The notes beneath the pieces are model-generated. The model had not been told where the DNA came from and did no database searches. It saw only the letters and a program-made list of their open reading frames with translations. Of a stretch of 64,000 nucleotides of DNA, positions 6,154 through 49,306 are shown piece after piece (position 1 is the first letter of the stretch; each line of letters opens with the position of its first letter). The translations under genes and the position numbers were made by a program. The stretch comes from Stenotrophomonas ginsengisoli (GTDB taxonomy: Bacteria > Pseudomonadota > Gammaproteobacteria > Xanthomonadales > Xanthomonadaceae): contig NZ_LDJM01000002.1 in NCBI RefSeq assembly GCF_001431485.1, positions 1-64,000 on the forward strand, read 5' to 3'.

Positions 6154-7541
6154 GGTGCCTCGACGATCAGCAGGTCGACCAGCGTTCGGACATCGGCGAT
6201 GTCCTCCAGATGGTCAATGTGGGAGATAAGGGTGGAACGGTGTTGCACGTCAAACTCACGCGCGGCGTGATCCAGGCAGTGGTGGAACTTCTCCAGCTGC
6301 TGCTCACGGCAAAGGGGGCGCTGCGGCGAACCGATGGCCGCATCACGGTGGTTGTGCAGGACCCGGCCATCGCGCAGGGTCACGCGCATGGACTGCGGCA
6401 CCAGTGCGTTGGGGTCGCTGCAGTCATTGGGCAGCAGCTGCACTGCCGGGGCAAAGGCGGCCAGGCGCGGATCGGCCAGTTTTCCCGGCGCATAGGCCGA
6501 CAGGCCGACCTTGCCGTCCAGAAGCACGGTGCCGAGCAGGAACGGCAGGCACAGGCGCGCATAGCTGGTCTGCATGTCGGCGGCATACGGGCGGCCGACC
6601 AGGCGGTGCACCAGCGGCGGTGCCAGCAGCTCGATGCCCGCCACGTTGTCCAGGGTCAGGCCATGGGCCGCACGCAGCTCCATCAGCATGTCCTGGGCGG
6701 CATGCGCTGCGCCGCCGGTGGGGAACACCTTGTGGCTGACGCTGAGCATCTGCGACTCAGCGCCATGCAGTTTCTGCAGCGACGGGCCGGTATCGAACTG
6801 CCCTTCAATCAATGGCAGGTAGCCGAACGGGCCTTCCAGCATGTCCTGCGGGGCCGGGAAACCATTGCGGGCCAGCTCCCAGCAGCTGAGTGCGGCCCGC
6901 GAGTTCAGGGCGATCTGCAGGGCCAGGGTCGGCGAGCCTTCCACATGCGCCTGCATGGTGCCGGACAGGTGCGAATAGGTCAGGCCCAGCGCGTTGCGCA
7001 CGGTGGCCTGGTCAGCAGCGTACAAGTGGGCGATGCCGGCCGTGGCACCGAGCGCACCGCACATGGCCGGACGGAAGAAGCGCATCGGCGCCCGCCCGCT
7101 GATGCCCAGCAGGGTGGCCACATCCACTGCCACGTTCAAGGCACTGATCAGGGTGCGGCCATCCACCACGCCCAGGCCACGGTTGGCCTTGTCTTCAGCC
7201 GCGGCGATCAGGGCCGAGGCGATCACCGCCATCGGGTGCACCACCGCCGGCATGTGCACGCAATCAAATTCCTGGCAGTGGATCTGCCAGCCATTGACCA
7301 TCGCCGCACTGGCCGCCGGCAGCGGTTCACCGGTGACCCAGGCCCGCGCCGCATTGCCACTGCCGTAGCTGGCCGCACTGGCACGCACCGCGGCGGTCAG
7401 CGGCACCTGGGTACCGGAGCCGGAAATGCCCACCGCCAGCGAGTCCATCAGGAACACCTTGCTGGCCGCTACCGCCTCGGCGCCGAGGTGGTCAAAACGC
7501 AGCGTGACAGCATGCTGCAGCAGGGCATCGGTCAGTGACAT
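6150..7541 (-). CDS. MmgE/PrpD family protein (first of a tandem pair)
   Basis: 463 residues from the ATG at 7541, the normal length for the MmgE/PrpD fold. Family members include 2-methylcitrate dehydratase, cis-aconitate decarboxylase and iminodisuccinate epimerase, all acting on small di- or tricarboxylates. Typical phrases are 'LDSLAVGISGSGTQ', 'NGWQIHCQEFDCVHMPAVVHP', 'MCGALGATAGIAHL' and 'SHKVFPTGGAAHAAQDM'. The start overlaps the end of the second MmgE gene by 10 bases. It is more likely a catabolic dehydratase, isomerase or decarboxylase of this cluster than housekeeping PrpD, since no prpC or acnD is nearby. Confidence 0.85.
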   Translation of the reverse strand: MSLTDALLQHAVTLRFDHLGAEAVAASKVFLMDSLAVGISGSGTQVPLTAAVRASAASYGSGNAARAWVTGEPLPAASAAMVNGWQIHCQEFDCVHMPAVVHPMAVIASALIAAAEDKANRGLGVVDGRTLISALNVAVDVATLLGISGRAPMRFFRPAMCGALGATAGIAHLYAADQATVRNALGLTYSHLSGTMQAHVEGSPTLALQIALNSRAALSCWELARNGFPAPQDMLEGPFGYLPLIEGQFDTGPSLQKLHGAESQMLSVSHKVFPTGGAAHAAQDMLMELRAAHGLTLDNVAGIELLAPPLVHRLVGRPYAADMQTSYARLCLPFLLGTVLLDGKVGLSAYAPGKLADPRLAAFAPAVQLLPNDCSDPNALVPQSMRVTLRDGRVLHNHRDAAIGSPQRPLCREQQLEKFHHCLDHAAREFDVQHRSTLISHIDHLEDIADVRTLVDLLIVEAP

Positions 7542-8899
7542 GGGCTTACCTGTGACAGCAACGGAGTGAGGGTATCCAGCGTGCCGCCTTCGGCCAGATT
7601 GCGCACTTGGACGATCAGCGCATGGGCCAGGCCGGGCTCCACCCCGCCCCACTGCGCCAGCTCCATCGCCTTGGTGTCGATATCGGCCGGGTGCATCGGC
7701 TGCTCCGGGTCACCCCAGGCATCGACGCGCTGGGCCTGCAGCACACGGCCATCGGCCAGCTGCACCCGCACGTTGGCACCGTAATGGGCCGGGAAGCGCG
7801 CCGAGCAGGCCGCATCCTCGACAACCTGCACAGCGCTGCGCAGGCGTGCAATGGCCGGATCAGCGCAGGCCGCATCGGTGTAATGGGCCAGCACCGGGGT
7901 GCCATGGGCACAGATCGCCGCCAGTGCGTGCTGCAGGGAAAATTTGGCCTGCAGCGCAGTCTGCGGCTCGGCCCGATCGCAGAAGCGCAGGGCCTCGGCA
8001 TAGGTGGCCACCTCGATGGCCACCACCTGGGCGCCATCACCGGGACGGCCACTGGCCAGTGCATCGTGCAGGGCATCGATGGCCGGGTGCGCATGCCGGC
8101 AGGCCGGCCACGGTTTGAGGCTGGTGCTGTGGATCAGCCAGTCCGCCTCTGCGGCCACCACGAGGGCCGGCTCGGCCTGCGGTGCAGTGGCGGCGAACAG
8201 GCCCTGCTCGCCTTCCAGGATGTAGCGCGGACCGCGCAGCCCGGCCTGGGCCAGCAGCGCGGCCTGCCAGCCGCTCTGCGCGGCCTGGGCGTTGTGCAAG
8301 GATTTGGTCGGCACGCTTTCATGGCGCATCTGCCACAGCCCGCCGGTACGACTGCCTGCCGTGCCCAGGGCATCAGCGGTCTGCGTTGCGTCCAGCCCCA
8401 GCACCGAGGCGGCGGCCGCGGTGGCGCCGAACGCGCCGGCGGTGGAGGTGGGGTGCCAGTAGCGGTAATGCGAGGTGCCCAGCGCGCGACCAACACGGAT
8501 GGTGGCCTCGTAGCCACGCACGATCGCATCGAGCAGGTCATGGCCGTTGCCGTTCTGGCGCTGGGTCGCGGCCAGGGCCACCGGAATCACCACCGGGCCC
8601 GGATGCAGGATCGCCGCGCGGTGCACGTCATCCATCTCCAGCACATTGCCCAGCGCGGCATTGATCAGCAGCGCATCGTGGATGTCGTGCTGGCCGGCCG
8701 ACAAGGCCGTGCACGGGCCCGGCGCGCACGAGGCCACCACGCCCTGCAGCTGCTGTGCCAGCGGGCCGCGCAAACCACCCAGGGCACAGCCCAGCCAGTC
8801 CACCAGCAGGGCCGCGGCACGTTGCCGCGCAGGCGCATCCACCGGCCGCTGCAGTTGCGTTGCCAGCTGTTGCACAAGCGAAGGAGAAGCCACGGTCAT
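7532..8899 (-). CDS. MmgE/PrpD family protein (second of a tandem pair)
   Basis: 455 residues from the ATG at 8899, which has AGGA 8 bases upstream. It has the same fold as its neighbour but is clearly divergent: 'LVDWLGCALGGLRGPLAQ', 'NVLEMDDVHRAAILHPGPVVIP', 'GYEATIRVGRALGTSHYRYWHPTSTAGAFGATAAAA' in broken form, and 'KPWPACRHAHPAIDA'. It is the first gene of the leftward operon, and its promoter region is shared with the acetyl-CoA hydrolase-like gene. Two non-identical MmgE/PrpD proteins side by side suggest either two successive steps or a heteromer; neither can be decided from sequence. Confidence 0.85.
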   Translation of the reverse strand: MTVASPSLVQQLATQLQRPVDAPARQRAAALLVDWLGCALGGLRGPLAQQLQGVVASCAPGPCTALSAGQHDIHDALLINAALGNVLEMDDVHRAAILHPGPVVIPVALAATQRQNGNGHDLLDAIVRGYEATIRVGRALGTSHYRYWHPTSTAGAFGATAAAASVLGLDATQTADALGTAGSRTGGLWQMRHESVPTKSLHNAQAAQSGWQAALLAQAGLRGPRYILEGEQGLFAATAPQAEPALVVAAEADWLIHSTSLKPWPACRHAHPAIDALHDALASGRPGDGAQVVAIEVATYAEALRFCDRAEPQTALQAKFSLQHALAAICAHGTPVLAHYTDAACADPAIARLRSAVQVVEDAACSARFPAHYGANVRVQLADGRVLQAQRVDAWGDPEQPMHPADIDTKAMELAQWGGVEPGLAHALIVQVRNLAEGGTLDTLTPLLSQVSPCH

Positions 8900-8970
8900 C
8901 ACGGATTCCTGGATCAAGAAGCGGCACGACAAACGGCGCATGGGCGCCCGTCCAGGTTTTGATGATAACC

Positions 8971-8998
8971 AACTTTGTCCGGACATATCATATGATCC
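8971..8998. promoter_or_regulatory. Divergent promoter region with TTGTCCGGACA operator-like palindrome
   Basis: The 127-base gap between the second MmgE gene and the acetyl-CoA hydrolase-like gene contains AACTTTGTCCGGACAT at 8971-8986, followed at once by a second short palindrome, ATCATATGAT. The first 15 bases recur exactly at 47971-47985 in front of block C. The shape (TTGTCC-GGACA) resembles GntR-family operators, and a GntR gene is encoded one gene downstream. It is therefore a candidate autoregulatory operator controlling both directions. Confidence 0.5.
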
Positions 8999-9026
8999 GC
9001 GCATTGGACCCACATTGGATGTTTGT

Positions 9027-29371: not shown

Positions 29372-31804
29372 TTAGAACTTGTAGCTGACTTCCACACCGT
29401 ACATGCGCGGCATCGACGGGGTGATACCGAAATCACGCAGGTTGGTGACAGCCAGACCCGTCAACGGCGGCACCGCCGGCACGGCCACATAGGCTTCCGG
29501 GTCGATGGCACGCTGTGCCTCTTCCGGGGTGCGGTCGTTGAAGGCGTTGTTGACGTAGGCGCTGACCTGCCACTGCTCGCTCGGACGCAGGGTGAAGCGC
29601 AGGTTGGTACGGGTCGCCGCACCGACCGAGGCCAGGTTGTCCACCTGCACGTAACGGCGGCCTTCGTAGGCCACGTCGGTGTTCAGGGTGTACTCCCAGC
29701 CGTTGGCAAACGCACCGTCATACATCAGGCCCAGGGTGGCCTTGTGCTTGGGCACGCGCGGCAGCTTGTAGCCGGCCGCATTGGCCGCCGCGTCCGCCAA
29801 GGTCGGGGCCGGGCCGGTACCGAACAGGTCGGCCTGGTCCTGGCTGATGAAGCTCTTGATCTGCGCATCGGTGTAGGAATAGGCCAGCGACGCCAGCCAG
29901 CCCGGGGCGAACACCCACTGGCTTTCCAGCTCGAAGCCCTTGATTTCCGACTCACCCACGTTGGTGGTGTAGCTGGTGGAGAACAGGGTGCCGTTCTTGC
30001 GGATCACCGGGCCGGTTTCGGTCAGCTGCTGGTTGGTCCAGTCGATCAGGTAGACGTTGGCATTCAGGCGCAGGGTGCCGTCCAGCCAGTCGCTCTTGAT
30101 GCCCAGCTCGTAGTTGATGGCTTCTTCTTCCTCGTAGGAGGACAGGCCGGCGGCAATCAGGCGGTCACGCTCGGCTTCCTGGAAGTCGGCGCGGTAGACG
30201 TCGGAGTTGAAGCCGCCCGGCTTGGTGCCCTTGGAGATCAAACCGTAGACGTTGACGTTGTCTGCGGCCTGGTAGCTCAGGGTCCAGCGCGGGGTGAAGC
30301 TGGTGAAGGTCTCGTTCAGTGCCCAGGCCTGGGTGTAGGTGTTGGCACCGAGCACACGGCGGTCCACACCGCCCTTGCTGATTTCGTCCCACGCATAGCG
30401 GGCTTCGATCGAGGTGGTCCACTTGTCGGTGATGTTCCAGTTCACCATGGCGTAGACCGCCTTGTTGGTGGTTTCATCATCCGGATCGGTCGGCACCTGC
30501 TGCACCGAACGGGTGCCCGGCAGGTAGAAGCCGGTCAGGTCACCACCCCAGCCCGGCTGGGCCTGCTGGTTGTAGTAGTACAGGCCGACCATGCCCGACA
30601 CGTCCAGCGACTGGTCGCTGCTCAGGCGCAGGTCCTGCGACCAGTTCTTCACCGCGGTGTTGGTGAAGGTTTCAAACGCACCGCCGTAGCCACGGTCGCT
30701 GCTGTAGTCCTGGTCGGTACCGGCGTAGGTCGAGCTGTCGTTGTAGGCAGTGGTCGAGGTGAAGGTCCAGTTGTTGTCGAAGAAGTATTCGGCACGCAGG
30801 CTGGTACGCAGGAAGTCGGTCTTGCGGCCGGCAAAGTAACCGGCAGCGGTGAACTCGTCGGTGTTGATGGCGTAATCGGTCGGCGCCTTGACGTCACCAC
30901 ACCAGTAGCCCCGGTGGCGGTTGGCCAGCACCGGGTACAGGCCGAAGTACAGCGCGCCGGTTTCCTGCGGCAGGTAGCAGTTGAGGTTTTCGCTGCCGAT
31001 GGTGGCAATGGCGAAATGCTCGTCGCGGCTCTTCTGCTGCATCACGCGGGCGGTGATGTCCAGCTTCTCGGTCGGCGACCAGGCCACGGCAACCATGCCG
31101 CTGATGGTCTCGGTACCGCCCAGGTCCTTCTTGTCGGAAGCCTGGTTGTAGTACATGCCGTCATTGCCGCGCTTGTTCAGGCTGACGTCGTAACCGAAGG
31201 TGCCGTCCTCATTGCCACCGGAGTGGAACAGGCCCAGCTTTTCCTGGCCGAAGTTGCCGGCGCCCAGGGTCAGCTTGGTGCCCGGGGCGCTGCCCGGGCG
31301 GCGGGTGATGAAGTCCACCGCACCGGAGAAGGTACGACGGCCGTAAGCGGCCGACTGCGGGCCACGCACCACTTCCACGCGCTGGATGTTTTCCAGGCCA
31401 TAGCTGGAAATGTCGCCTTCCACGTAGATGCCGTCGATGAAGAACGAGGCATTGGCCTCGCCCTGGATGTTGGACATGCCGCGGATCACCGGGCGGTCAA
31501 AGCCACGGCCGTAGCCGGACTTGAAGGAGAAGCTCGGCGACATGGCGGCGATGTCGCGCACATCCACCAGGCCCTTCTTCTCGATGGTGGCCTCGGAGAT
31601 GGCCGAGATCGGCAGCGGCATCTGCTGCAGCGGCTCGGCGACACCACGGGCGGTGACTTCGATCGATTCCAGGCTGGTGACCGGGCCAGCGGCGGCATCG
31701 GCCGGTTCGGCAGCGGGGTTGTCTGCAGCAACGGCGTGACCTGCACTGATCATCAGTGCAAGTGCGATGGAGGAGCACAGCAGGTCGGGCTTGACGGTTT
31801 TCAT
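29372..31804 (-). CDS. TonB-dependent outer-membrane receptor
   Basis: 810 residues from ATG 31804. A signal peptide ends near 'GHAVAADN'. A TonB-box-like start 'LESIEVTARG' precedes the plug domain ('LVDVRDIAAMSPSFSFKSGY', 'PVIRGMSNIQGEANASFFID', 'IQRVEVVRGPQSAAYGRRTF', 'SGAVDFITRRPG'). A long beta-barrel follows and ends in 'PRMYGVEVSYKF', with the expected terminal Phe. It belongs to the FecA/catechol-type iron-substrate receptors that sphingomonads and xanthomonads also use for organic substrates. As the second gene of a catabolic operon it is the likely entry port for the pathway substrate; siderophore uptake is the alternative. Confidence 0.92.
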   Translation of the reverse strand: MKTVKPDLLCSSIALALMISAGHAVAADNPAAEPADAAAGPVTSLESIEVTARGVAEPLQQMPLPISAISEATIEKKGLVDVRDIAAMSPSFSFKSGYGRGFDRPVIRGMSNIQGEANASFFIDGIYVEGDISSYGLENIQRVEVVRGPQSAAYGRRTFSGAVDFITRRPGSAPGTKLTLGAGNFGQEKLGLFHSGGNEDGTFGYDVSLNKRGNDGMYYNQASDKKDLGGTETISGMVAVAWSPTEKLDITARVMQQKSRDEHFAIATIGSENLNCYLPQETGALYFGLYPVLANRHRGYWCGDVKAPTDYAINTDEFTAAGYFAGRKTDFLRTSLRAEYFFDNNWTFTSTTAYNDSSTYAGTDQDYSSDRGYGGAFETFTNTAVKNWSQDLRLSSDQSLDVSGMVGLYYYNQQAQPGWGGDLTGFYLPGTRSVQQVPTDPDDETTNKAVYAMVNWNITDKWTTSIEARYAWDEISKGGVDRRVLGANTYTQAWALNETFTSFTPRWTLSYQAADNVNVYGLISKGTKPGGFNSDVYRADFQEAERDRLIAAGLSSYEEEEAINYELGIKSDWLDGTLRLNANVYLIDWTNQQLTETGPVIRKNGTLFSTSYTTNVGESEIKGFELESQWVFAPGWLASLAYSYTDAQIKSFISQDQADLFGTGPAPTLADAAANAAGYKLPRVPKHKATLGLMYDGAFANGWEYTLNTDVAYEGRRYVQVDNLASVGAATRTNLRFTLRPSEQWQVSAYVNNAFNDRTPEEAQRAIDPEAYVAVPAVPPLTGLAVTNLRDFGITPSMPRMYGVEVSYKF

Positions 31805-31932
31805 GGCGTTTTCCGGAAAGATGGGCCGGGGGATGCGGTGAGTGACATCGTCTGGGGGAGGAGGCACTGCATCACTTGCGTCTGGCGTCGTGCGGTCTTG
31901 CGTGTTGCGGTCGTACGGTGGCGCGGTCTGGC

Positions 31933-32787
31933 TCAGTCACTGCTGCCGTCAGCCGGCTGGCGGTCACGGTAGTAACTCCAGCTGGTGACGTTGGGTTGCA
32001 CCCATTGCGCCGGGGCAGTGGCGTATTCGGGGTAATCGCGGGCGATGCGCGCGCGGATGTCCTCGGGCAGTTCATCCACCGAAGCGCGCTTGTTGCCCTG
32101 GGCCACGTACAGCAGCGAGCCTTCGCGGGTGCCCAGCTTCATCCACGGCAGCCACGGGCCGACGCGGGTCCAGCCGTAGGTGACCGGCACCTGGCTCAGG
32201 CTGGCGTCTTCCATCGCTGCGCGCGGGGTGAAGAACATGAAGTGTTCCGAACCGATGTACATCGGGCCGGAGGATTCGGCCGGGAACTTCGCCGGCGACA
32301 ACGGGTTGGGATAGGCCAGCGGGATGTTCAAGGTCAGCATCAGGGTGTCGCCGGCCTGCACCCACGGCAGCGGTACGTCGTGGCCCGGCGCATTGAGCAC
32401 GGTGTTGACCGGGTCATTGGCCACGTGCACCACCTCGACGGTCTGGCCGCTGTACGGGTTGTCCCACTGGTCGATGATCTGGCCGGTGGCCAGGTCGCGG
32501 TAGAAGGTCAACTCACGGGTGACCAGGCGCCAGGTGCCGTCGGCCAGCTTCTCCGAACGGCAGATGTTGTAGCCCTCGAAGCCCAGCAGCGGCGCAGCCT
32601 TCTTCTCCGGCTCCTGCGCAAACAGGGTACCTTCCCACCACAGCAGCACATCTTGCTTGGGGTCCAGCGAGCAGCGCATCTTGACCAGCGCTTCGGTACG
32701 CCCGGCGGCAGAATCAAGGTCCAGCGCGCTGGCCTGCGCCGAAAGTGCGATTGCAGTGCCGGCCAACAATGTGAAAAGTGTCTTCAT
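31933..32787 (-). CDS. Exported DUF1838 family protein
   Basis: 284 residues with a signal peptide ending 'ALSAQASALD'. The rest fits DUF1838: 'EALVKMRCSLDPKQDVLLWW', 'EGTLFAQEPEKKAAPLLGFE', 'YNICRSEKLADGTWRLVTRE', 'TYGWTRVGPWLPWMKLGTRE', 'GSLLYVAQGNKRASVDELPE'. No catalytic signature is known. It is the first gene of the leftward block B operon, directly before the TonB receptor, and faces the methyltransferase gene across a structured gap. A periplasmic substrate-handling role is an inference from position only. Confidence 0.82.
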   Translation of the reverse strand: MKTLFTLLAGTAIALSAQASALDLDSAAGRTEALVKMRCSLDPKQDVLLWWEGTLFAQEPEKKAAPLLGFEGYNICRSEKLADGTWRLVTRELTFYRDLATGQIIDQWDNPYSGQTVEVVHVANDPVNTVLNAPGHDVPLPWVQAGDTLMLTLNIPLAYPNPLSPAKFPAESSGPMYIGSEHFMFFTPRAAMEDASLSQVPVTYGWTRVGPWLPWMKLGTREGSLLYVAQGNKRASVDELPEDIRARIARDYPEYATAPAQWVQPNVTSWSYYRDRQPADGSSD

Positions 32788-32898
32788 TCCCAGTCCCCCC
32801 GCCGCCTCGAAGGCTGCCTGTCGTAGTACGAAATGGTGTCATTGCGAAGGCCGCGTGATGACCACCAAGTGACATATAGCTATAACATTAGATCATAC

Positions 32899-33078
32899 TT
32901 GTCCAGTCATTTAGCCCTGCCGAAAGGCACCCCGTCAATGACCGGACAAACTTGCGCAAAGCATTGCCCTGCAACGCTTTGCTTTGTTGCAAAGCAGCAA
33001 AACAAGCTGACTGCGAATTGATCCAGATCAAGGAAACCGGCAGGTCTGGACCCGTACCTTGACCTGGCCGGTTTTTTT
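32899..33078 (+). ncRNA. Candidate small RNA or structured leader
   Basis: Between the two 22-bp repeats lies about 180 bases with no open frame but with successive stem-loops. A 13-bp stem, TTGTCC(A)GTCATT/AATGAC(C)GGACAA (32899-32949), encloses a small GCC-GAAA-GGC hairpin. GCAAAGC/GCTTTGC and CTTTGC/GCAAAG stems lie at about 32956-32998. A classic terminator stem with seven T ends the element at 33078. The terminator points rightward but lies before the methyltransferase start, so the RNA would end ahead of any gene. It is either an independent small RNA or an attenuating leader. Transcription is not proven. Confidence 0.4.
33034..33078 (+). terminator. Rho-independent terminator upstream of the methyltransferase gene
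   Basis: AAACCGGCAGGTC pairs with GACCTG(G)CCGGTTT with one bulged base, followed by T7. It is oriented rightward, 60 bases before the methyltransferase start, and has no coding gene in front of it on that strand. Confidence 0.8.
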
Positions 33079-33138
33079 GACATATAGCTATATCATTAGA
33101 ACCTGGGCACCCGCCCTGTCCTGACCCGGAGCAACGCC

Positions 33139-34326
33139 ATGAGCGAGCAAGTCCTGCCCCCCAGCTGGCAACACGTAGGCCGCCACGACCTGTTCCCGGT
33201 CAGCGCGCACGATGACACCGCGCGCTTCGACTTCCTGGCCAACCTCAATGGCTACCTGGCCAGCCAGGTCAGCCCCAAGGTCAAGCAGTCCTACGACAAG
33301 CGGGTCAAGCCGGCATTCGAGAAGGCCGTCGGCCGCGAACCGGCCAGCCGCCATGAAGTGCGCAAGGCCATGGCCGGCGATCCGGTCTACCAGACCTGGA
33401 GTGCGCTGCGCCGCAGCTCGATGGAAATGCGCCAGCAGGCCGGCCGCTCGCTGGTGCTGCGCCAGGCCGATGCCCTGATCGACAAGGCCCGCCGCTACAA
33501 CCAGGCCGATGACGGCCTGAAGCTGGACGCCAGCGTGCAGGTGCCGCGCTACGCCAGCGCGGTGGACATCCACTGCATGCCCGGTGGCTACCACACCGAA
33601 CTGACTGCCGATGACGTCACCGCGGCGGCCAACTACGACTGCGGCATCTTCGCCACCACCGGCGGCATGCTCGGCCGTTACAACGATGGCGGCGGCCAGG
33701 CCCTGGCCCAGTGGCTGGCCGAGCACCACCCGGACTTCAAGCCCAAGCGCATCCTGGATATCGGCTGCACCGTCGGCCACAACATCGTGCCGCTGGCCCA
33801 GGCCTTCCCGGAGGCCGAGGTGATCGCCATCGACGTGGCCACCCCGATGCTGCGCTACGCCCATGCCCGCGCCCGCTCGCTGGGGGTGAACAACATCACC
33901 TTCGTGCAGGCCAATGGCGAGGCGCTGGACTTCCCCGATGGCCACTTCGACATCGTCATGACCTCGATGTTCTGGCACGAGACCAGTTCCAAGGCCATGC
34001 CCAGGATGCTCGGCGAATGCCACCGCGTGCTGGCCGCAGGCGGCCTGACCGCCCACCTGGAACAGCCGCAGTACCACGGCATGGACCCGTACGAGCAGTT
34101 CATCCGCGACTGGGATGCCTACAACAACAACGAGCCGTTCTGGAGCGTCATGCACGAGTACGACCTGCAGGACATGATGACCAAGGCAGGCTTTGCCCCG
34201 CAGCAGTACTTTGAAACCAAGATCCGCGGTGTGGTTGACCGCGACATCTTCCCGGTGGCCAGCGAAAAGGGCGAGGACCACGGTCGCGCCGCCCTGTGGA
34301 CGATGTTCGGAGCGTGGAAAGCATGA
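33139..34326 (+). CDS. Class I SAM-dependent methyltransferase
   Basis: 395 residues. A ~200-residue N-terminal extension of unknown fold precedes a Rossmann methyltransferase domain: motif I 'RILDIGCTVGHNIVPLA' (about residue 212), 'AEVIAIDVATPMLRYAHARA', 'FVQANGEALDFPDGHFDIVM', and 'ECHRVLAAGGLTAHLEQPQY'. It is the type acting on small molecules (UbiE/COQ5-like). It heads a rightward operon: the next gene starts within its stop codon (ATGA). In this catabolic context it may O- or N-methylate an intermediate or a signal; the substrate is unknown. One copy of the ATATAGCTATA element lies in its promoter. Confidence 0.85.
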   Translation: MSEQVLPPSWQHVGRHDLFPVSAHDDTARFDFLANLNGYLASQVSPKVKQSYDKRVKPAFEKAVGREPASRHEVRKAMAGDPVYQTWSALRRSSMEMRQQAGRSLVLRQADALIDKARRYNQADDGLKLDASVQVPRYASAVDIHCMPGGYHTELTADDVTAAANYDCGIFATTGGMLGRYNDGGGQALAQWLAEHHPDFKPKRILDIGCTVGHNIVPLAQAFPEAEVIAIDVATPMLRYAHARARSLGVNNITFVQANGEALDFPDGHFDIVMTSMFWHETSSKAMPRMLGECHRVLAAGGLTAHLEQPQYHGMDPYEQFIRDWDAYNNNEPFWSVMHEYDLQDMMTKAGFAPQQYFETKIRGVVDRDIFPVASEKGEDHGRAALWTMFGAWKA

Positions 34327-40840: not shown

Positions 40841-41959
40841 TCAACCCAGGCCGAGTTCCTTGAGCACGGCGTCGGTGGAGCCGCCGATGGCATCCAGGGC
40901 GGGGTTGATGCGGCCGGGTTCGTTGGCGAACTTGATCGGGATGCCCAGGTGCTTGCCGCCGTCCGGGTCGGTCCAGACCATCTCGCGGGCGGCGGTGTGC
41001 GGATCATTGAAGGCTTCGGTCAATGTCTTGACCGGTGCCCAGCACACATCCAGGCCGTGCAGGAACAGGCTCCATTCGCTCAGGGTGCGGCGGATGAAGG
41101 TATTGGCGAGGAATTCCTTGACCGGGTTCTGCACCGGGCCGGGCGGCTGGTGGCACAGGTGGATCAGGTCCGGGCGGCCAAGAGCGCCGAGCAGGTTCTC
41201 GGCAAACTTGTGTTCCGAGCCACCAATGGCCAGCCAGCGGCCATCGCTGCACTGGTACAGGCGGTACATGGCATTGCCACCCCAGCTGCGCTCGTCCTGG
41301 ATGACCGGGTCACGGCCATTGGCAAACGGCGGGCCGACTACATTGGGCAGCCAGCTCATCAGCGCGTCCTGCATCGAGATGTCGATGAAGTCGCCGGCAC
41401 CGGTCTTTTCCCGGCGCAGCAGGGCCATCAGGATGCCGCTCATGGCCATCAGCGAGCCGGCCATGTCGGCCACCGGCATGTGCGGCATGGCCGGGGTGCC
41501 GTCCGGGGCGCGGTTGAGGCTGACCACACCGGTGTCGGCCTGCATGGCCAGGTCGTGTGCGGGGCGGTTGACCTTGGGCCCGGTCTGGCCGAAGGCGCTG
41601 ATCGAGCAGTACACCACGCGCGGGTTGATGGCCTGGCAGCTGGCGTAATCAATGCCCAGACGCTTGGCCACGCCGGGGCGGAAGGCCTCCACCACCACAT
41701 CGGCCCATTCCACCAGCTTGGCAAACGCGGTCTTGCCGGCCTCGCTCTTCAGGTCCAGCACGATGCAGCGCTTGCCACGGTGGGTATTGCGGAACCAGGT
41801 GGCGACGCCCGCCTGCTTCAGGCCAACCTCGCGCACCGGCTCGCCGGTGGGCGGCTCGATCTTGATCACATCGGCGCCGTGGTCGGCCATCACCATGGTC
41901 AGGTGCGGGCCGGGCAGGAACAGCGACAGGTCCAGGACGCGGACGCCTTCCAGCTTCAT
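40841..41959 (-). CDS. CaiB/BaiF CoA-transferase
   Basis: 372 residues, family III CoA-transferase: 'VRVLDLSLFLPGPHLTMVMA', 'DHGADVIKIEPPTGEPVREV', 'THRGKRCIVLDLKSE', 'VVVEAFRPGVAKRLGIDYAS', 'VYCSISAFGQTGPKVNRPAH', and the catalytic Asp expected in 'MPVADMAGSLMAMSG'. It is slightly short for the family but complete. Its start overlaps the stop of the upstream CaiB gene by 4 bases, so the two distinct transferases are made together, perhaps as a heterodimer. In itaconate-type pathways a CaiB enzyme loads CoA from succinyl-CoA before the MaoC and CitE steps; the same set of genes is present here. Confidence 0.9.
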   Translation of the reverse strand: MKLEGVRVLDLSLFLPGPHLTMVMADHGADVIKIEPPTGEPVREVGLKQAGVATWFRNTHRGKRCIVLDLKSEAGKTAFAKLVEWADVVVEAFRPGVAKRLGIDYASCQAINPRVVYCSISAFGQTGPKVNRPAHDLAMQADTGVVSLNRAPDGTPAMPHMPVADMAGSLMAMSGILMALLRREKTGAGDFIDISMQDALMSWLPNVVGPPFANGRDPVIQDERSWGGNAMYRLYQCSDGRWLAIGGSEHKFAENLLGALGRPDLIHLCHQPPGPVQNPVKEFLANTFIRRTLSEWSLFLHGLDVCWAPVKTLTEAFNDPHTAAREMVWTDPDGGKHLGIPIKFANEPGRINPALDAIGGSTDAVLKELGLG

Positions 41960-43140
41960 GCCAGCTCTCCCAGCAGGCGCACGATGGCGGCATCGTCATA
42001 GCCCAGCTCGGCCAGCAGCTCCTGGGCATCGGCATTGAGCGGCGGGCAGGCTGCGCCAGTGAGGCGCTGGCCATCCAGCTTGACCGGGTTGCACAGCACG
42101 CGCTGCGGGCCCTGCGGGTGGTCGATGGTCTGCACCATGCCCACGCGCTCCACGTACGGGTTGTCCAGCGCGGCGGCCACGTCCAGGATCGGCGCCACCG
42201 GAATCTTGCCGGCAAACACCTCCATCCACTGCGCGGTGGTGCGGGTGGACAGCACCGCGTCCACCAGCGGGGTCAGCTCCAGGCGCGATTCACGACGGGC
42301 GGCAAAGTTGGCAAAGCGGGCCTCGCCTGCCCACTCCGGCGAGCCGATGCCGGCGATGAAGGTCTGCCAGAACTTCTCCAGCATGCACATCACCATGATC
42401 CAGCCATCGGCGGTGCGGTAGACCTGGCACGGCACGGTGGACGGATGCGCGCTGCGCTCCAGGCGCTCGGTGCGGTGGCCGTTGTTGAGGTACCAGGTGG
42501 CCGGGTAGCTGAGCTGGTGCAGGGCCACGTCGAACAGACTCACGTCCACATCGCGGCCGATGCCGGTGCGCATCGCACCGACCACGCCGGCCAGCAGGGC
42601 CATGGACATGGTGGTGCCGGTCATGAAGTCGACCATGGACAGGCCGAAGCGCGCCGGCGGTGCATCCGGCTCACCGGTCAGGGCCATGAAGCCGGCTTCG
42701 GCCTGCATCAGGTAGTCATAGCCCGGCCAGGCCGCACGCTCGTTGTCACGACCGTATGCGGACAGGTGCGCGCAGACGATCTTCGGGTTGATCCTGGACA
42801 GGGTGGCGTAATCCAGGCCGAGCTTTTCCGGCTGGTCACCACGCAGGTTGTTGAGCACGGCATCGGCGGTGCCGATCAGCTTTTCAAACACCTCACGGCC
42901 TTCGGCGGCCTTCAAGTCCAGGCGCAGCGAGCGCTTGTTGAGGTTGAAGGTCTGGAAGAACAGGCTGTCGCCCTGGCCCAGGAAATACGGGCCGGTGGAG
43001 CGCGACACATCGCCGCCCGGCGGCGATTCAATCTTGATCACCTCCGCGCCGAGGTCAGCCAGGTGCATCGAGCCATAGGGGCCGGCGCCGTATTGTTCCA
43101 CGGCAACGATGCGCAGGCCCTTGAGCGGAAGGTCTTTCAT
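41956..43140 (-). CDS. CaiB/BaiF CoA-transferase
   Basis: 394 residues, second family III CoA-transferase of block C: 'GLRIVAVEQYGAGPYGSMHL', 'ADLGAEVIKIESPPGGDVSR', 'NKRSLRLDLKAAEGREVFEK', 'VCAHLSAYGRDNERAAWPGY', and the catalytic Asp in 'GLSMVDFMTGTTMSM'. It differs from the neighbouring copy throughout, so the pair is not a recent duplication. It is preceded by the acyl-CoA dehydrogenase (83-base gap). Confidence 0.9.
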   Translation of the reverse strand: MKDLPLKGLRIVAVEQYGAGPYGSMHLADLGAEVIKIESPPGGDVSRSTGPYFLGQGDSLFFQTFNLNKRSLRLDLKAAEGREVFEKLIGTADAVLNNLRGDQPEKLGLDYATLSRINPKIVCAHLSAYGRDNERAAWPGYDYLMQAEAGFMALTGEPDAPPARFGLSMVDFMTGTTMSMALLAGVVGAMRTGIGRDVDVSLFDVALHQLSYPATWYLNNGHRTERLERSAHPSTVPCQVYRTADGWIMVMCMLEKFWQTFIAGIGSPEWAGEARFANFAARRESRLELTPLVDAVLSTRTTAQWMEVFAGKIPVAPILDVAAALDNPYVERVGMVQTIDHPQGPQRVLCNPVKLDGQRLTGAACPPLNADAQELLAELGYDDAAIVRLLGELA

Positions 43141-43223
43141 GATTCATCCCAATACTGAAAATAAAAACGCTGCGGCAACCCGCAAGGGCCACCGCAGCGA
43201 GAGACACGCGACGGTGGCGCGGA

Positions 43224-44393
43224 TCAGATCTTGTTGCGGGCAACCAGCTGCTTGGCAATGATGATGCGCTGCATCTCGTTGGTGCCTTCGCCGATGCACA
43301 TCAGCATCGCATCGCGGTAGAAGCGCTCGATGTCATATTCCACCGAGTAGCTGTAGCCGCCGAAGATACGCATGCCTTCCTGGGCGCAGAACACGCCGGT
43401 TTCGGTGGCAAAGTACTTGGCCATGCCCGCTTCCATGTCGCAACGCTCGCCCTTGTCATAGGCATTGGCGGCGCTTTCGATCAGCAGCTTGGAGGCCTCG
43501 ACCTTGGCCGCCATTTCACCCAGCTTGAGCTGGATGGCCTGGTGCTCGGCAATCGGCTTGCCGAAGGTCATGCGCTCCTGGGCGTAGCGCACCGCCAGGC
43601 GCAGCGCGCCTTCGGCGATGCCACAACCACGGGCGGCGACGTTGATACGGCCCAGTTCCAGGCCACCGACGGCATGCAGGAAGCCCTTGCCTTCTTCGCC
43701 GCCGAGCACGCAGTCGGCCGGCACCTTGTAGTTCTCGAACACCAGCTCGCAGGTGTCGATGGCGCGGTAACCGGCCTTCTTCATCTTCTTGGCGACGATG
43801 AAGCCTTCGCTCTTTTCGGCGATGAACATGGTCATGCCCTTGTGGCGCGGCTGCGCCTCCGGGTCGGTCTTGGCCAGCAACAGGATCATGTCGCCGTACA
43901 TCGAGTTGGTGATCCAGGTCTTGGCGCCGTTGATGACGTAATGGTCACCCTCGCGCTTGGCCACGGTGCGGATCGCCTGCAGGTCGGTGCCGGCATTGGG
44001 CTCGGTCAGGCCCAGGCCACCACGCAGCTCACCGGTGGCCATGCGCGGCAGGTACTTGCGCTTCTGCTCTTCGGTACCGCAACGCTCGATGGCCGCAGCC
44101 ATGATCAGGTGCGAGTTGAAGATGCCCGACGGCGCCATCCACACCGAAGCGACCTTGACCACGATCTTGGCGTAGATGCGCGCCGGCAGGCCCAGGCCGC
44201 CGTATTCGGGCGAGATGGTGGCACCGAACAGGCCAAGGTCCTTCATCTCCTCGACCAGCTGATGCGGGTACTTGTCTTCCTGGTCGTACTCCTGGGCAAT
44301 CGGGGCAACCGACTTTTCCACCCAGTTGTCGATGGCGTCGAGCAGGGTCTGCTCTTCTTCCGGGCCCCACATCAGATCCATTTCGGTGCTCAT
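43224..44393 (-). CDS. Acyl-CoA dehydrogenase
   Basis: 389 residues with all acyl-CoA dehydrogenase blocks: 'LGLFGATISPEYGGLGLPAR', 'GGLGLTEPNAGTDLQAIRTV', 'KTWITNSMYGDMILLLAKTD', 'GGLELGRINVAARGCGIAEG', 'RIFGGYSYSVEYDIERFYRD', and the catalytic Glu in 'CIGEGTNEMQRIIIA'. ATG 44393 is preferred because GAGG lies 9 bases before it; ATG 44399 is two codons upstream. It introduces a 2,3-double bond into an acyl-CoA and passes electrons to ETF. MaoC, the next enzyme, is encoded 11 bases upstream and would hydrate the product. Confidence 0.92.
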   Translation of the reverse strand: MSTEMDLMWGPEEEQTLLDAIDNWVEKSVAPIAQEYDQEDKYPHQLVEEMKDLGLFGATISPEYGGLGLPARIYAKIVVKVASVWMAPSGIFNSHLIMAAAIERCGTEEQKRKYLPRMATGELRGGLGLTEPNAGTDLQAIRTVAKREGDHYVINGAKTWITNSMYGDMILLLAKTDPEAQPRHKGMTMFIAEKSEGFIVAKKMKKAGYRAIDTCELVFENYKVPADCVLGGEEGKGFLHAVGGLELGRINVAARGCGIAEGALRLAVRYAQERMTFGKPIAEHQAIQLKLGEMAAKVEASKLLIESAANAYDKGERCDMEAGMAKYFATETGVFCAQEGMRIFGGYSYSVEYDIERFYRDAMLMCIGEGTNEMQRIIIAKQLVARNKI

Positions 44394-44404
44394 CGCCATA
44401 TTCC

Positions 44405-44923
44405 TCAGTAGTTGACCTTGTCTTCGACCGAGTGGCCGATCTTGGCAATCAGCATGGTGCGGGTGAAGGTGCACACCAGCTTGCCGTCCTGGTTGTAGCC
44501 ATCGGTCTGCACGGTGACGATGCCGGCGCCCGGACGCGAAGCCGACTCACGCTTGCCCAGCACCTTGGATTCGCACATCAGGGTGTCGCCGACAAACAGC
44601 GGGAAGGTCATCTTGATGTCGCCCCAGCCCAGGTTGGCAATGGCCTTCTGCGACACGTCGGTCACGCTCATGCCCACCATCAGGGCCACGGTGAACGGCG
44701 AGCAGACGATGCACTTGCCGAATTCCGATTCCTTTGCGTACTCCTTGTCGAAGTGCATCGGATGGGTGTTCATGGTCAGCAGGGTGAACCAGGTGTTGTC
44801 GGTTTCGGTGATCGAACGGCCCGGGCGGTGCTCGTAGATGTCACCGACATTGAACTCTTCGTAGTGACGACCGAAGGTCTCACGGAAACGGTTTTCAGCG
44901 ATCTGCTTGACGTTCTGAACCAT
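44405..44923 (-). CDS. MaoC-like enoyl-CoA hydratase
   Basis: 172 residues, single hot-dog domain. The hydratase motif region reads 'ITETDNTWFTLLTMNTHPMH' followed by 'CSPFTVALMVGMSVTDVS', with the Asp and His of the MaoC catalytic pair in place. The family includes itaconyl-CoA and mesaconyl-CoA hydratases as well as R-specific enoyl-CoA hydratases. Neighbours (CaiB, acyl-CoA dehydrogenase, CitE-type lyase) fit a hydratase that makes a 3-hydroxy- or malyl-type CoA ester for cleavage. A good ribosome site (GGGAGGT, rc) precedes the start. Confidence 0.88.
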   Translation of the reverse strand: MVQNVKQIAENRFRETFGRHYEEFNVGDIYEHRPGRSITETDNTWFTLLTMNTHPMHFDKEYAKESEFGKCIVCSPFTVALMVGMSVTDVSQKAIANLGWGDIKMTFPLFVGDTLMCESKVLGKRESASRPGAGIVTVQTDGYNQDGKLVCTFTRTMLIAKIGHSVEDKVNY

Positions 44924-45018
44924 GGGAGGTGTCCTTTTTCGTTCGGTTTGTGCTGGCTTGCGGGCGCAGCTTGGTCAAAGAGGGGCAATGCCCCATGTTC
45001 AATGCAGCGATAAAGCGG

Positions 45019-45873
45019 TCAGTCCTGGCGCAGGCCGTGCAGCCCCAGGGCAATGGCACGTTCGGCAGCAATTTCGATCGGGCGGTCCACCAGCTTGCCG
45101 TCCACCGCCACCGCGCCACCGCCGTTGTCGGCCATGGCCGCGACCACGCGGCGGGCATAATCCAGCTCGTTGGCGGTAGGCAGGTAACGGCTCTGGATGG
45201 TGTCCACCTGGGCCGGGTGGATCGCCGCCTTGGCGGTGAAGCCCAGGGCGATCACGCGGTCGGTTTCCTCACGCAGGCCGGCCTCGTCCTTGATGTCCAG
45301 GTACGGCACGTCCATGCAGCCGACATTGGCCTCGGCAGCGATGGTGGCCAGCTGCACGCGCGGGTGGAAGAAACTCTCCCAGCCGGCGCGGCCACGCAGG
45401 GCCACGATGTAGTCGAAGCCGCCAAACATCAGGGCCTGCACGCGGCCGCTGGCGGCCACGATCTGGCGCGCATCCAGCAGGCCCTTGGGGGTTTCGATCT
45501 GCACGATGAAGCCGGTGTCGATCGCGGCCAGGGCTGCATCGGCGGCAGCCAGTTCAGCCGCGCTTTCCACCTTGGGCAGCATCACGAAGGCCGGACGCAC
45601 ACCGGCCGCGGCCAGGGCGGCCAGGTCGGCCTTGCCCAGCTCGCTGCTGACCGGGTTCACGCGCAGGCCGATCTCGTTGCCGCCGGCCTGGGCCTGGGCA
45701 AGAAATTCGATCACCGCGGCGCGGGCCGTTTCCTTGTCGCCCGGGGCAACCGCGTCTTCCAGGTCAATGCAGACTTGGTCGGCACCGGTGGCCACGGCCT
45801 TGGCGAAACGCTCCGGGCGCGAACCCGGAACGAACAGCAGGCAACGGCGCGGGTTGCTCAGCGGCGTGCTCAC
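45019..45873 (-). CDS. CitE/HpcH-type CoA-ester lyase
   Basis: 284 residues of the HpcH/HpaI / citrate-lyase-beta family: 'RCLLFVPGSRPERFAKAVAT', 'VCIDLEDAVAPGDKETARAA', 'EIGLRVNPVSS', 'FIVQIETPKGLLDARQI', 'LMFGGFDYIVALRG', 'GFTAKAAIHPAQVDTIQSRY'. The Mg-binding Glu and Asp and the substrate-binding Arg are present. Such enzymes split malyl-, citramalyl- or methylmalyl-CoA esters into acetyl-CoA (or propionyl-CoA) and a keto acid. Its stop-side partner MaoC lies 95 bases downstream; a weak GGGGCATTGCCCC hairpin in the gap may tune expression. Confidence 0.88.
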   Translation of the reverse strand: MSTPLSNPRRCLLFVPGSRPERFAKAVATGADQVCIDLEDAVAPGDKETARAAVIEFLAQAQAGGNEIGLRVNPVSSELGKADLAALAAAGVRPAFVMLPKVESAAELAAADAALAAIDTGFIVQIETPKGLLDARQIVAASGRVQALMFGGFDYIVALRGRAGWESFFHPRVQLATIAAEANVGCMDVPYLDIKDEAGLREETDRVIALGFTAKAAIHPAQVDTIQSRYLPTANELDYARRVVAAMADNGGGAVAVDGKLVDRPIEIAAERAIALGLHGLRQD

Positions 45874-46766: not shown

Positions 46767-47609
46767 TCAGTGGTTTTCTTCACCGCCGGAGACGTTGATC
46801 GCCTCGCCGGTTATGTAGACCGCATCGTCGGAACACAAAAAGGCGGTGGCCGCGGCGGTATCGCCCGGCAGGCCCGGGCGACCCAGCGGAATGCGCGCGC
46901 GCATGTCGGCCAGGTACTGGTCCACGCTCTTGCCCTGCTTGGCAGCGAAGTATTCGTTCTGCCAGGCGCCCAGGCCGGTGGTGACATGGTTGGGGCAGAC
47001 GGCATTGACGTTGATGCCGTGGCCGCCCAGCTCCAGCGCAGCAACCCGGGTCAGGCCGACCAGGCCGTGCTTGGAGGAGCAGTAGGCCGCCGCGTGCGGG
47101 AAGGCCGACTTGGCCGCCTGCGAGGCGATGTTGACGATGCGCCCGCTGCCCTGGGCAATCATCTGCCGGCCGGCGTGCTTGATGGTCAGGAACGGGCCGC
47201 GCAGGTTGACCCCGAGCACCGCATCCCACTCGCTGGCCTCGATATCGACAATGCCCTTCATCAGGTAACCGATGCCGGCGTTGTTGACCAGGATGTCCAG
47301 CGCACCGAACTTTTCCACCGTGGCGGCGACAACCGCCTGCACCTGGGCCTCGTCGAGCACATCCAGGGCCATGGCCACGCACTGGCCACCAGTAGCGGCA
47401 GCCAGCTCGGCGGCCACCTGGGCCATTTCCTCATCGGTGCCCACGGCGGTGACCGGCATTTCGGCACCACGCGCCTGGCCGATGTCGGTGAGCACCACGT
47501 TGCAGCCTTCTTCGAGCAGGCGGCGGGCAATGCCCTCGCCCAGGCCACCACGACGACCGGCACCGGTGATCAGTGCAACCTTGCCCTTGAGTTCGGGAAA
47601 ACGTGCCAT
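46767..47609 (-). CDS. Short-chain dehydrogenase/reductase
   Basis: 280 residues, classical SDR: nucleotide motif 'VALITGAGRRGGLGEGIARR', 'DILVNNAGIGYLMKGIVDIE', catalytic Ser and Tyr-x3-Lys in 'VNIASQAAKSAFPHAAAYCS' followed by SKHG, and the end 'CSDDAVYITGEAINVSGGEE'. It oxidises or reduces a hydroxyl/keto group with NAD(P). A ~20-residue insertion after the first nucleotide strand ('GQARGAEMPVTAVGTDEEMA') is uncommon. It lies 23 bases after the RedY/HapK-like gene in the block C leftward operon. Confidence 0.9.
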   Translation of the reverse strand: MARFPELKGKVALITGAGRRGGLGEGIARRLLEEGCNVVLTDIGQARGAEMPVTAVGTDEEMAQVAAELAAATGGQCVAMALDVLDEAQVQAVVAATVEKFGALDILVNNAGIGYLMKGIVDIEASEWDAVLGVNLRGPFLTIKHAGRQMIAQGSGRIVNIASQAAKSAFPHAAAYCSSKHGLVGLTRVAALELGGHGINVNAVCPNHVTTGLGAWQNEYFAAKQGKSVDQYLADMRARIPLGRPGLPGDTAAATAFLCSDDAVYITGEAINVSGGEENH

Positions 47610-48082: not shown

Positions 48083-49306
48083 ATGAAGCGTTACTACCCG
48101 TGGTTGATGGCGTTGATGGGGATGTTGGTGCTGTTGGTTTCCAACGGCCTGACCGTGACCGGGCTGACCGCCTTTGACGAGTCACTGCTCGCCGAATTCG
48201 GCTGGAGTCGCAGCGAGTTGAAACTGCGTGACCTGCTCACCCTGGTGCTGGCCGGTTGGATGGCACCGTTCCTGGGGGCACTGATCGACCGCATCGGCCC
48301 ACGCAAGCTGGTGCTGGCCGGCGTCGCCCTGCTGGCTGCCCTGTATGCGGCGTATGCCCACGTGCAGTCGCTCACCCACCTGTATCTGATCCATATCGGC
48401 TTTGCTGCCGTACTGGTCGCCGCCGGCCTCAACGTAGCGGTGATCTTCATCTCCCAGTGGTTCCACACCCACCGCGGCACCGCCATCGGCATTGCGCTGA
48501 TCGGCACCTCCCTGGGGGGCATGGTGTTTCCCAAACTGGGGGTGAAACTGCTCGAATCCATGGACTGGCGTGCGGCCCTGCTGTGGGAAACCGCCATCCC
48601 GGTGGCCTTCCTGCTGCTGGCCTTTGCCTTCATGCGCAGTCCGCAGGCTCTGGGCATGACCCCGTGGGGCGCGGAAAAGGCCGCGGCGGCAACGGCCGCC
48701 ATCCCCGAAGCCGAGCGCCACACCGACCTGTCTTATACCCAGGCCATGCGCACCCGCACCTTCTGGGCGTTGGCCGTGGTGGCCATGGCCACCTTCTTCT
48801 CGATCATCGCCGCCTCCTCCAACCTGTTCCTGCACATGCGCGACCTGGGATTTGAACCGGCCCAGGCCGGCAACGGTCTGGGTGTGATGTTCGGCCTGGC
48901 CATGGTGGGCAAGTTCGCCTTCGGCCTGCTGGCCGACATCTTTCCGCCCAAGCGGGTGTTCCTGCTCAACCTGGCCCTGATGACCGCCGGTGGTTTCATC
49001 ATGGCCACCATGCGTGTGGACCTGATCTGGTACGCCCTGATCCTGTTCGGTCTGGGCTGGGGCGGCCTGTACACGATGATCCAGCTGCTGGCGGTCAATG
49101 CCTTTGGCTTGAGCTCGGCCGGCAAGATCCTGGGCACCATCACCCTGCTTGATGCCACCACTGCCGGTCTGGGCGTGTGGCTGGCTGCCAAGATCTCGGA
49201 CATGACCGGCAGCTATGCGCCGGCTTTCCAGCTGATCAGTGGCCTGCTGGTGCTGGCCCTGCTTGTCGCAACACTGGTGCGCAACGAACGCACCGCCACT
49301 GCCTGA
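48083..49306 (+). CDS. MFS transporter
   Basis: 407 residues with twelve predicted transmembrane helices. Conserved major-facilitator features include 'LIDRIGPRKLVLAGVALLAA' in the first cytoplasmic loop, 'GTAIGIALIGTSLGGMVFPK' and 'LLADIFPPKRVFLLNLALMT'. It resembles the oxalate/formate-type and monocarboxylate-type MFS carriers. A GCGAGG site precedes the start. Position at the head of the rightward block C operon suggests that it imports the pathway substrate or an intermediate across the inner membrane, complementing the TonB receptor of block B. Confidence 0.9.
   Translation: MKRYYPWLMALMGMLVLLVSNGLTVTGLTAFDESLLAEFGWSRSELKLRDLLTLVLAGWMAPFLGALIDRIGPRKLVLAGVALLAALYAAYAHVQSLTHLYLIHIGFAAVLVAAGLNVAVIFISQWFHTHRGTAIGIALIGTSLGGMVFPKLGVKLLESMDWRAALLWETAIPVAFLLLAFAFMRSPQALGMTPWGAEKAAAATAAIPEAERHTDLSYTQAMRTRTFWALAVVAMATFFSIIAASSNLFLHMRDLGFEPAQAGNGLGVMFGLAMVGKFAFGLLADIFPPKRVFLLNLALMTAGGFIMATMRVDLIWYALILFGLGWGGLYTMIQLLAVNAFGLSSAGKILGTITLLDATTAGLGVWLAAKISDMTGSYAPAFQLISGLLVLALLVATLVRNERTATA

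Follow-up and report, generated by a model that had tools for sequence, protein, structure and literature searches.

Repressors of the GntR/HutC type, among them HutC, NagR/YvoA with its dre sites and DasR, combine a GntR DNA-binding domain with a UTRA effector domain, and their sites are dispersed over several operons, including that of the regulator's own gene. GntR operators have the form GT-N4-AC. An excerpt of PMC4333415 reports imperfect palindromes for the native dre sites, and a second excerpt, of PMC6343905, places FNR class I sites at -61.5 or -71.5. Small RNAs with intrinsic termination close a structured intergenic stretch with a GC-rich hairpin and a T run.

Elements resembling each of these systems occur in a gap of the Stenotrophomonas ginsengisoli genome. 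To its left the DUF1838/TonB-receptor operon starts at 32787 on the minus strand, and to its right the methyltransferase operon starts at 33139 on the plus strand. A preliminary description of this DNA had proposed a small RNA or attenuator, framed by two operator-like repeats. The small RNA found little support in our comparison with related genomes, and the gap is most likely, judging from its sequence and that of its relatives, a control region common to the two catabolic operons, which diverge from it, in a species near S. koreensis. We consider it probable that this region is an FNR-activated, GntR-repressed divergent promoter region. Systems of this kind are already known; the regulon itself is uncharacterised, and a narrow search of the literature on DUF1838 and on HutC operators found no description of it. 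For this catabolic regulon, which belongs to relatives of Stenotrophomonas and Lysobacter, the analysis offers a candidate regulator and operators, along with a second motif and a putative oxygen input.

Materials and methods

The stretch analysed, hereafter called the window, comprises positions 1-64,000 of the forward strand of contig NZ_LDJM01000002.1 of S. ginsengisoli (GCF_001431485.1). The gap DNA was searched in 91 genomes of the genus, of which 10 gave a match, the window's own included. With the DUF1838 protein as query, the best 80 of 96 matches corresponded to 79 distinct loci. The gaps of ten loci on the Xanthomonadaceae side (L011-L019 and L036) were compared, L024 was inspected for motif 2, and the other 68 loci were scanned for motifs only. 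Two DNA searches scored at most seven and at most eight candidates per genome, and absences in them are weaker than those in the genus-wide motif and protein searches. A family sample of 395 genomes was also used, which overlaps the genus sample of 91. The ten comparison genomes for motif 2 were taken by handle number, not randomly.

Results and discussion

Two direct repeats and their relatives

The features of the gap and related sites are collected in Table 1. The direct repeats of the preliminary description were borne out, as copies of 23 nt rather than 22 bp, lying on the same strand and identical at 22 of 23 positions; they are in direct orientation although the operons diverge. They are the only two matches within the window at three or fewer mismatches, and none was obtained in 100 shuffles.

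Table 1. Coordinates of the gap features, of the flanking genes and of two distant motif 2 sites (positions in the window)
Feature	Position	Strand	Remarks
Exact motif 2 site TTTGTCCGGACATA	8974..8987	+	Inside the first 40 bp of the MmgE/PrpD ORF (7532-9013, minus)
DUF1838 protein	31933..32787	-	First gene of the left operon; TonB receptor (29372-31867) next
Left operator repeat TGACATATAGCTATAACATTAGA, motif 1	32870..32892	+	Putative operator, upstream of the DUF1838/TonB-receptor operon
Motif-2-like site ATACTTGTCCAGTCAT	32895..32910	+	Adjoins the left repeat; several relatives have the palindrome ATGATTGTCCAATCAT
Motif 2 site TTTGTCCGGTCATT	32937..32950	-	Other stem arm; one mismatch to TTTGTCCGGACAWW
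Short hairpins	32956..33014		Pairs kept in S. koreensis no more than by chance; GTTGCNNNGCAAC-like palindrome in gaps of other species (by eye)
Perfect FNR/ANR box TTGATCCAGATCAA	33018..33031		TTGAT-N4-ATCAA, centre 33024.5
GC-rich hairpin, then seven T	33034..33078	+	Terminator-like in the window species
Putative -35 TTGACC	33059..33064	+	Methyltransferase operon; conserved spacing to -10
Right operator repeat TGACATATAGCTATATCATTAGA, motif 1	33078..33100	+	Upstream of the methyltransferase operon; contains the putative -10
Putative -10 TATAGC	33083..33088	+	Predicted; inside the right operator
Class I methyltransferase	33139..34326	+	First gene of the right operon
Exact motif 2 site TTTGTCCGGACAAA	47974..47987		Between divergent SDR (46767-47609, minus) and MFS (48083-49306, plus) genes

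Among the relatives found, S. koreensis (G007) alone has the gap in full; it matches the entire query at 75% identity, and the inner 185 nt align at 69% identity with no gaps. In seven further genomes (G004, G025, G037, G051, G113, G115 and G130) the match is limited to the left repeat and the TTGTCC site beside it, and the other gaps could not be usefully aligned across the inner segment. Two repeats are present in the Stenotrophomonas loci L011-L015 and in S. koreensis, and L018 and L019 have one diverged repeat. The left repeat occurs in all nine genus genomes with the regulator described below, and it is the sole copy in the Lysobacter loci L016 and L036, from which the inner segment is missing.

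At two or fewer mismatches the repeat (motif 1) was found in 9 of the 91 genus genomes, with 4-5 sites each, as compared to 0/91 for the same pattern read backwards. A GntR/UTRA (HutC-type) protein, first met through a third, looser copy of motif 1 in the window's genome, is encoded at E<=1e-20 in exactly these nine genomes, and the repeat is therefore a dispersed regulon motif. A copy lies directly upstream of the gene of this protein (gntR1) in 9/9 genomes, at two or fewer mismatches in eight and with 3 in G051. The same holds for its paralogue gntR2, 45-51% identical, which has a motif 1 copy directly upstream in all nine, in eight by that pattern search and in S. koreensis by other scans, and which lies 3.6-10.5 kb from gntR1 in the seven genomes with both genes on one contig. 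A third GntR match in G037, 30% identical, was set aside.

In the family sample, motif 1 matches were present in 15 of the 395 genomes, the regulator (E<=1e-40) in 10 and both in 9, at no more than six proteins scored per genome, by which some regulators may have been missed. Nine of the ten regulator genomes have 2-5 matches, as against one each in 6 of the 385 others, and five of these six share a single site in one genus. One genome, G192, has the regulator and no motif 1 match.

The Pfam matches of the protein are GntR and UTRA; among named proteins in the PDB the repressor YvoA/NagR matches it best, and DasR was also matched. It stays below the NCBIfam cut-off of all 25 listed families (27 matched), with 108.6 bits of 220 for HutC and 71.7 of 156.8 for PhnF, and is thus HutC-like and not HutC itself. 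Most motif 1 sites contain the core GNTATANC, the gntR1 site of G051 being one that does not, and few have the strict GT-N4-AC form; the core may fit that form of GntR operators. The proposal of the preliminary description that the repeats are operator-like thus gained strong comparative support from the recurrence of the motif and its co-occurrence with the regulator. We infer that motif 1 is the operator of this GntR/HutC-type regulator, which would also control its own gene and its paralogue; another protein of the same pathway that binds motif 1 could give an equal co-occurrence. As in the HutC, NagR/YvoA and DasR systems, GntR and UTRA domains are joined, the sites are spread over several operons including the regulator's own, and the motif 1 sites may be imperfect palindromes like the native dre sites, whereas the operator sequence differs and two paralogous regulators are present.

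Two other origins of the repeat were considered. An insertion-sequence or MITE end was set aside, since the copies inspected are upstream of regulon genes. A plain -10 element is possible in part, but 21 bp alike across genera are more than a -10 needs.

A putative promoter and an FNR box before the methyltransferase operon

The hexamer TTGACC is followed after 18 bp by TATAGC in the window, in S. koreensis, in G397, which belongs to another genus, and in L016 and L036. In L011-L015, L092 and L094 it is followed by TATAGA after 20 bp, a long spacer that is found in 7 of 12 gaps. It is present in L019 and missing in L018. The promoter scan lists a promoter for neither operon; TATAGC escapes it because its rule demands a T at the last position, and for the DUF1838 operon no good -35/-10 pair was found.

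Upstream of the hexamers lies a perfect FNR/ANR box, and its centre keeps a distance of 34.5 bp to TTGACC in the window and likewise in S. koreensis and G397. The exact box is missing from the gaps of L011-L016, L018, L019 and L036. A transcript start near 33095, inferred from the hexamers, would place the box at -70.5, close to the class I position of -71.5. The locus resembles class I FNR/ANR-activated promoters in the perfect box and in the presence of an FNR-type protein in the genome, and may do so in the distance of about 70.5 bp between the box and the predicted start; unlike them, it has a putative GntR-type operator over the -10.

Four suitably placed cysteines are the rule for an FNR-type Fe-S regulator, and the FNR-type protein encoded at L196:985-1749 has Cys 28, 31, 39 and 127. 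The genome holds 13 TTGAT-N4-ATCAA boxes, compared to 0 for the reversed pattern. Typical FNR targets account for four only, at cydA, at hemN (two) and at a hemerythrin gene; the remaining ones are that of the gap, one each at an SDR gene and between flagellin-like genes, and six that could be linked to no known FNR target.

Some observations were made by eye in the same comparisons. The perfect box at L142:1501-1514 of the window's genome lies between two flagellin-like genes. G020 matches the gap DNA over the FNR box, there upstream of an azurin-like gene, and L176, the G397 locus upstream of the methyltransferase, has an apparent coding-sequence end in place of the second repeat.

The 13-bp stem and a second motif

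The 13-bp inverted repeat with an inner hairpin was confirmed, with arms at 32899-32911 and 32937-32949, 12 of 13 positions paired and a short inner stem. Its proposed embedding of a regulon half-site received strong support from the relatives, one arm being one mismatch away from TTTGTCCGGACA, which we call motif 2; both arms are facing TTGTCC..TCATT sites. In 11 distinct sequences, taken from loci of Stenotrophomonas and of the Lysobacter type, TTGTCC (ATGTCC in two loci) begins 29 bp after the start of the left repeat; the L018 and L019 repeats, which have diverged, and the G397 (L176) repeat have no such site beside them. The exact motif TTTGTCCGGACAWW was found in 9/9 regulon genomes, at 63 places by our own count, and in 0/10 comparison genomes. 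At one mismatch the comparison genomes gave 0-2 matches, and the reversed control 0-4 per strand.

TGTCCGGACA also occurs near several gntR2 sites, and several motif 1 sites, that of gntR1 included, have no exact copy of it within 250 bp. In the other Stenotrophomonas gaps the two TTGTCC sites are more than 100 bp further apart and form no 13-bp hairpin. As part of the reading that we regard as probable, the stem would arise from a second regulon motif, whose sites face each other, and not from pairing in an RNA.

Taken together, the arrangement suggests the following mechanism. A GntR/UTRA regulator on the right operator would cover the -10 of TTGACC-18-TATAGC and block RNA polymerase, and an effector, presumably a metabolite of the pathway, would release it. 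The left operator would act likewise on the DUF1838/TonB-receptor operon, the FNR/ANR box would add activation of the methyltransferase operon at low oxygen, and the facing TTGTCC sites would serve the second regulon motif. Among the points against this explanation is the minus strand, whose fold in the window and in S. koreensis is far more stable than chance would give, to an extent that the operators alone do not explain.

Alternatives: DNA looping, a structured leader and a small RNA

The preliminary description had offered DNA-loop repression as an alternative. Such a model would have a single regulator complex contact both repeats, with the intervening 208 bp as the loop. Near-identical operators do flank an inner segment in 9/9 genus genomes, but their spacing varies (208, 208, 289, 309, 309, 320, 321, 322 and 322 bp), giving 19.8 to 30.7 turns without a common helical phase, and the two Lysobacter gaps have one repeat copy each. 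The spacing thus gives no support to looping, which we hold to be unlikely.

The excess minus-strand folding could instead reflect a structured leader, in that DUF1838 transcripts starting to the right of 32893 would carry a folded regulatory 5' region. The minus strand of 32893-33077 has an unusually stable fold in the window and in S. koreensis despite many differing pairs, with a z of about -4.8 to -5.34 in the former and -4.9 in the latter. The S. koreensis energy is -72.2 against -53.3 (sd 4.3), and 0 of 300 simulated descendants were as low; 19 of 63 pairs are broken where 25.5 were expected (P=0.025), and the consensus fold, at -44.2 against -27.3 (sd 4.5), beats 99.7% of 300 simulated pairs. 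Much of this excess, however, is the operator stem, in which 2 of 14 pairs are broken as against 5.5 (P=0.04). Two-sided changes do not exceed chance either (3 vs 2.6 for the window fold, 2 vs 5.2 for the consensus fold), the gaps of five other species show nothing consistent (minus z from -1.45 to +1.59), and the promoter scan found no minus-strand promoter. The two species appear to share some folding capacity, more of it on the minus strand and part of it owed to the operator stem; that it belongs to a regulatory leader seems to us quite unlikely.

The small RNA or attenuator first proposed would run on the plus strand for about 150-180 nt, starting near the left repeat and ending at the T run. 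The two further stems that had been listed are present, one at 32956-32967/32971-32982 and the other an overlapping palindrome at 32978-33001. Of the perfect terminator, the seven T at 33072-33078 stood, while the stem proved imperfect, with 11 outer and 2 inner pairs and -19.5 kcal/mol for 38 nt. The terminator scan does not list this hairpin and its T run, probably, as we guess, through its loop-length and bulge rules. As had been stated, the plus strand upstream of the T run offers no recognisable gene for it to serve. The DUF1838 and TonB-receptor genes in that region are read from the opposite strand, and the ORF list has one plus-strand ORF there (31876-32826), antisense to them.

On either strand, the 185 nt between the repeats fold more stably than every one of 200 dinucleotide shuffles, with a z of -5.30 on the plus and -5.34 on the minus strand; this excess of structure is genuine, but does not by itself point to a plus-strand RNA. 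A small RNA would agree with the strong plus-strand fold and terminator-like end in the window, with a plus-strand promoter match at 32869-32896 (GTGACA-16-GATCAT; 0.1 in shuffles), with a T run that is identical in S. koreensis, and with a two-species consensus fold of -30.8 against -21.3 (sd 4.3), which beats 97.7% of 300 simulated pairs. The relatives argue against it. In S. koreensis 23 of the 65 pairs of the plus fold break, where randomly placed substitutions would break 27.1 (sd 3.1; P=0.13), and of the 18 pairs in the terminator region 9 break (7.4 expected); in the operator stem of the same fold 2 of 12 break (5.0 expected, P=0.06). The covariation check suggested in the preliminary description, a weak test with one relative that has the whole segment, gave compensatory changes at the level of chance (2 vs 2.8 expected for the window fold, 6 vs 4.6 for the consensus fold). 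The plus-strand z falls to -1.1 in S. koreensis and lies between -1.43 and +0.64 in the gaps of five other species.

The terminator fares no better. The 47 nt after the FNR box reach -8.8 kcal/mol in S. koreensis as compared to -23.2 in the window, and S. koreensis keeps the seven T behind a compact hairpin of 5 bp (-3.5). T runs reach no more than 2 in the corresponding G397 segment, whose hairpin (-15.5 kcal/mol) lies mostly to the left of TTGACC, and 3-5 in nine other gaps. The plus-strand promoter match at the left repeat is gone in S. koreensis (by eye), the Lysobacter gaps L016 and L036 are without the inner segment, and Rfam gave 0 matches at the gathering score over the window, its single match of 9.7 bits against a threshold of 70 being at chance level. 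Hairpin and T run, moreover, overlap the conserved TTGACC and the right repeat, i.e. the putative methyltransferase promoter. The gap therefore resembles intrinsically terminated small RNAs in that a GC-rich hairpin and a T run end a structured intergenic stretch, and differs from them in this overlap, in lacking a conserved promoter or terminator and in compensatory changes that do not exceed chance in S. koreensis, the single relative that has the segment entire. We judge a plus-strand small RNA or attenuator very unlikely. Large fold z values on both strands, even next to a T run, can come from an operator-rich promoter and do not necessarily imply a small RNA.

Also very unlikely is a composite of two paralogous GntR/UTRA regulators whose operators, GNTATANC and GTCCGGAC, would be interleaved at the same promoters, joined to an FNR oxygen input and, in the S. 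koreensis clade, to an inner segment turned into a stably folded minus-strand leader RNA of the DUF1838 operon.

Extent of the regulon

The two exact motif 2 sites elsewhere in the window suggest that the regulon may spread over much of the window. The MmgE/PrpD ORF that contains one of them is given with its listed start, and the true start may be further in. Two CoA-transferase family III genes, an acyl-CoA dehydrogenase gene and an HpcH/HpaI lyase gene lie at 40841-45873, and MmgE/PrpD genes at 6150-9013; they look like an acyl-CoA catabolic pathway.

The PWM scan was built on ten hand-picked sites, the window's own among them, and its scores for those ten are circular; its new matches, L126:16406, L128:13255 and L128:11483, are leads only. 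At the betaproteobacterial DUF1838 locus L024, GTTGTCTGGACAAC and TATGTCCGGACAAC lie at 7040-7125, upstream of its TonB receptor gene, and motif 2 may on this ground be common beyond the Xanthomonadaceae.
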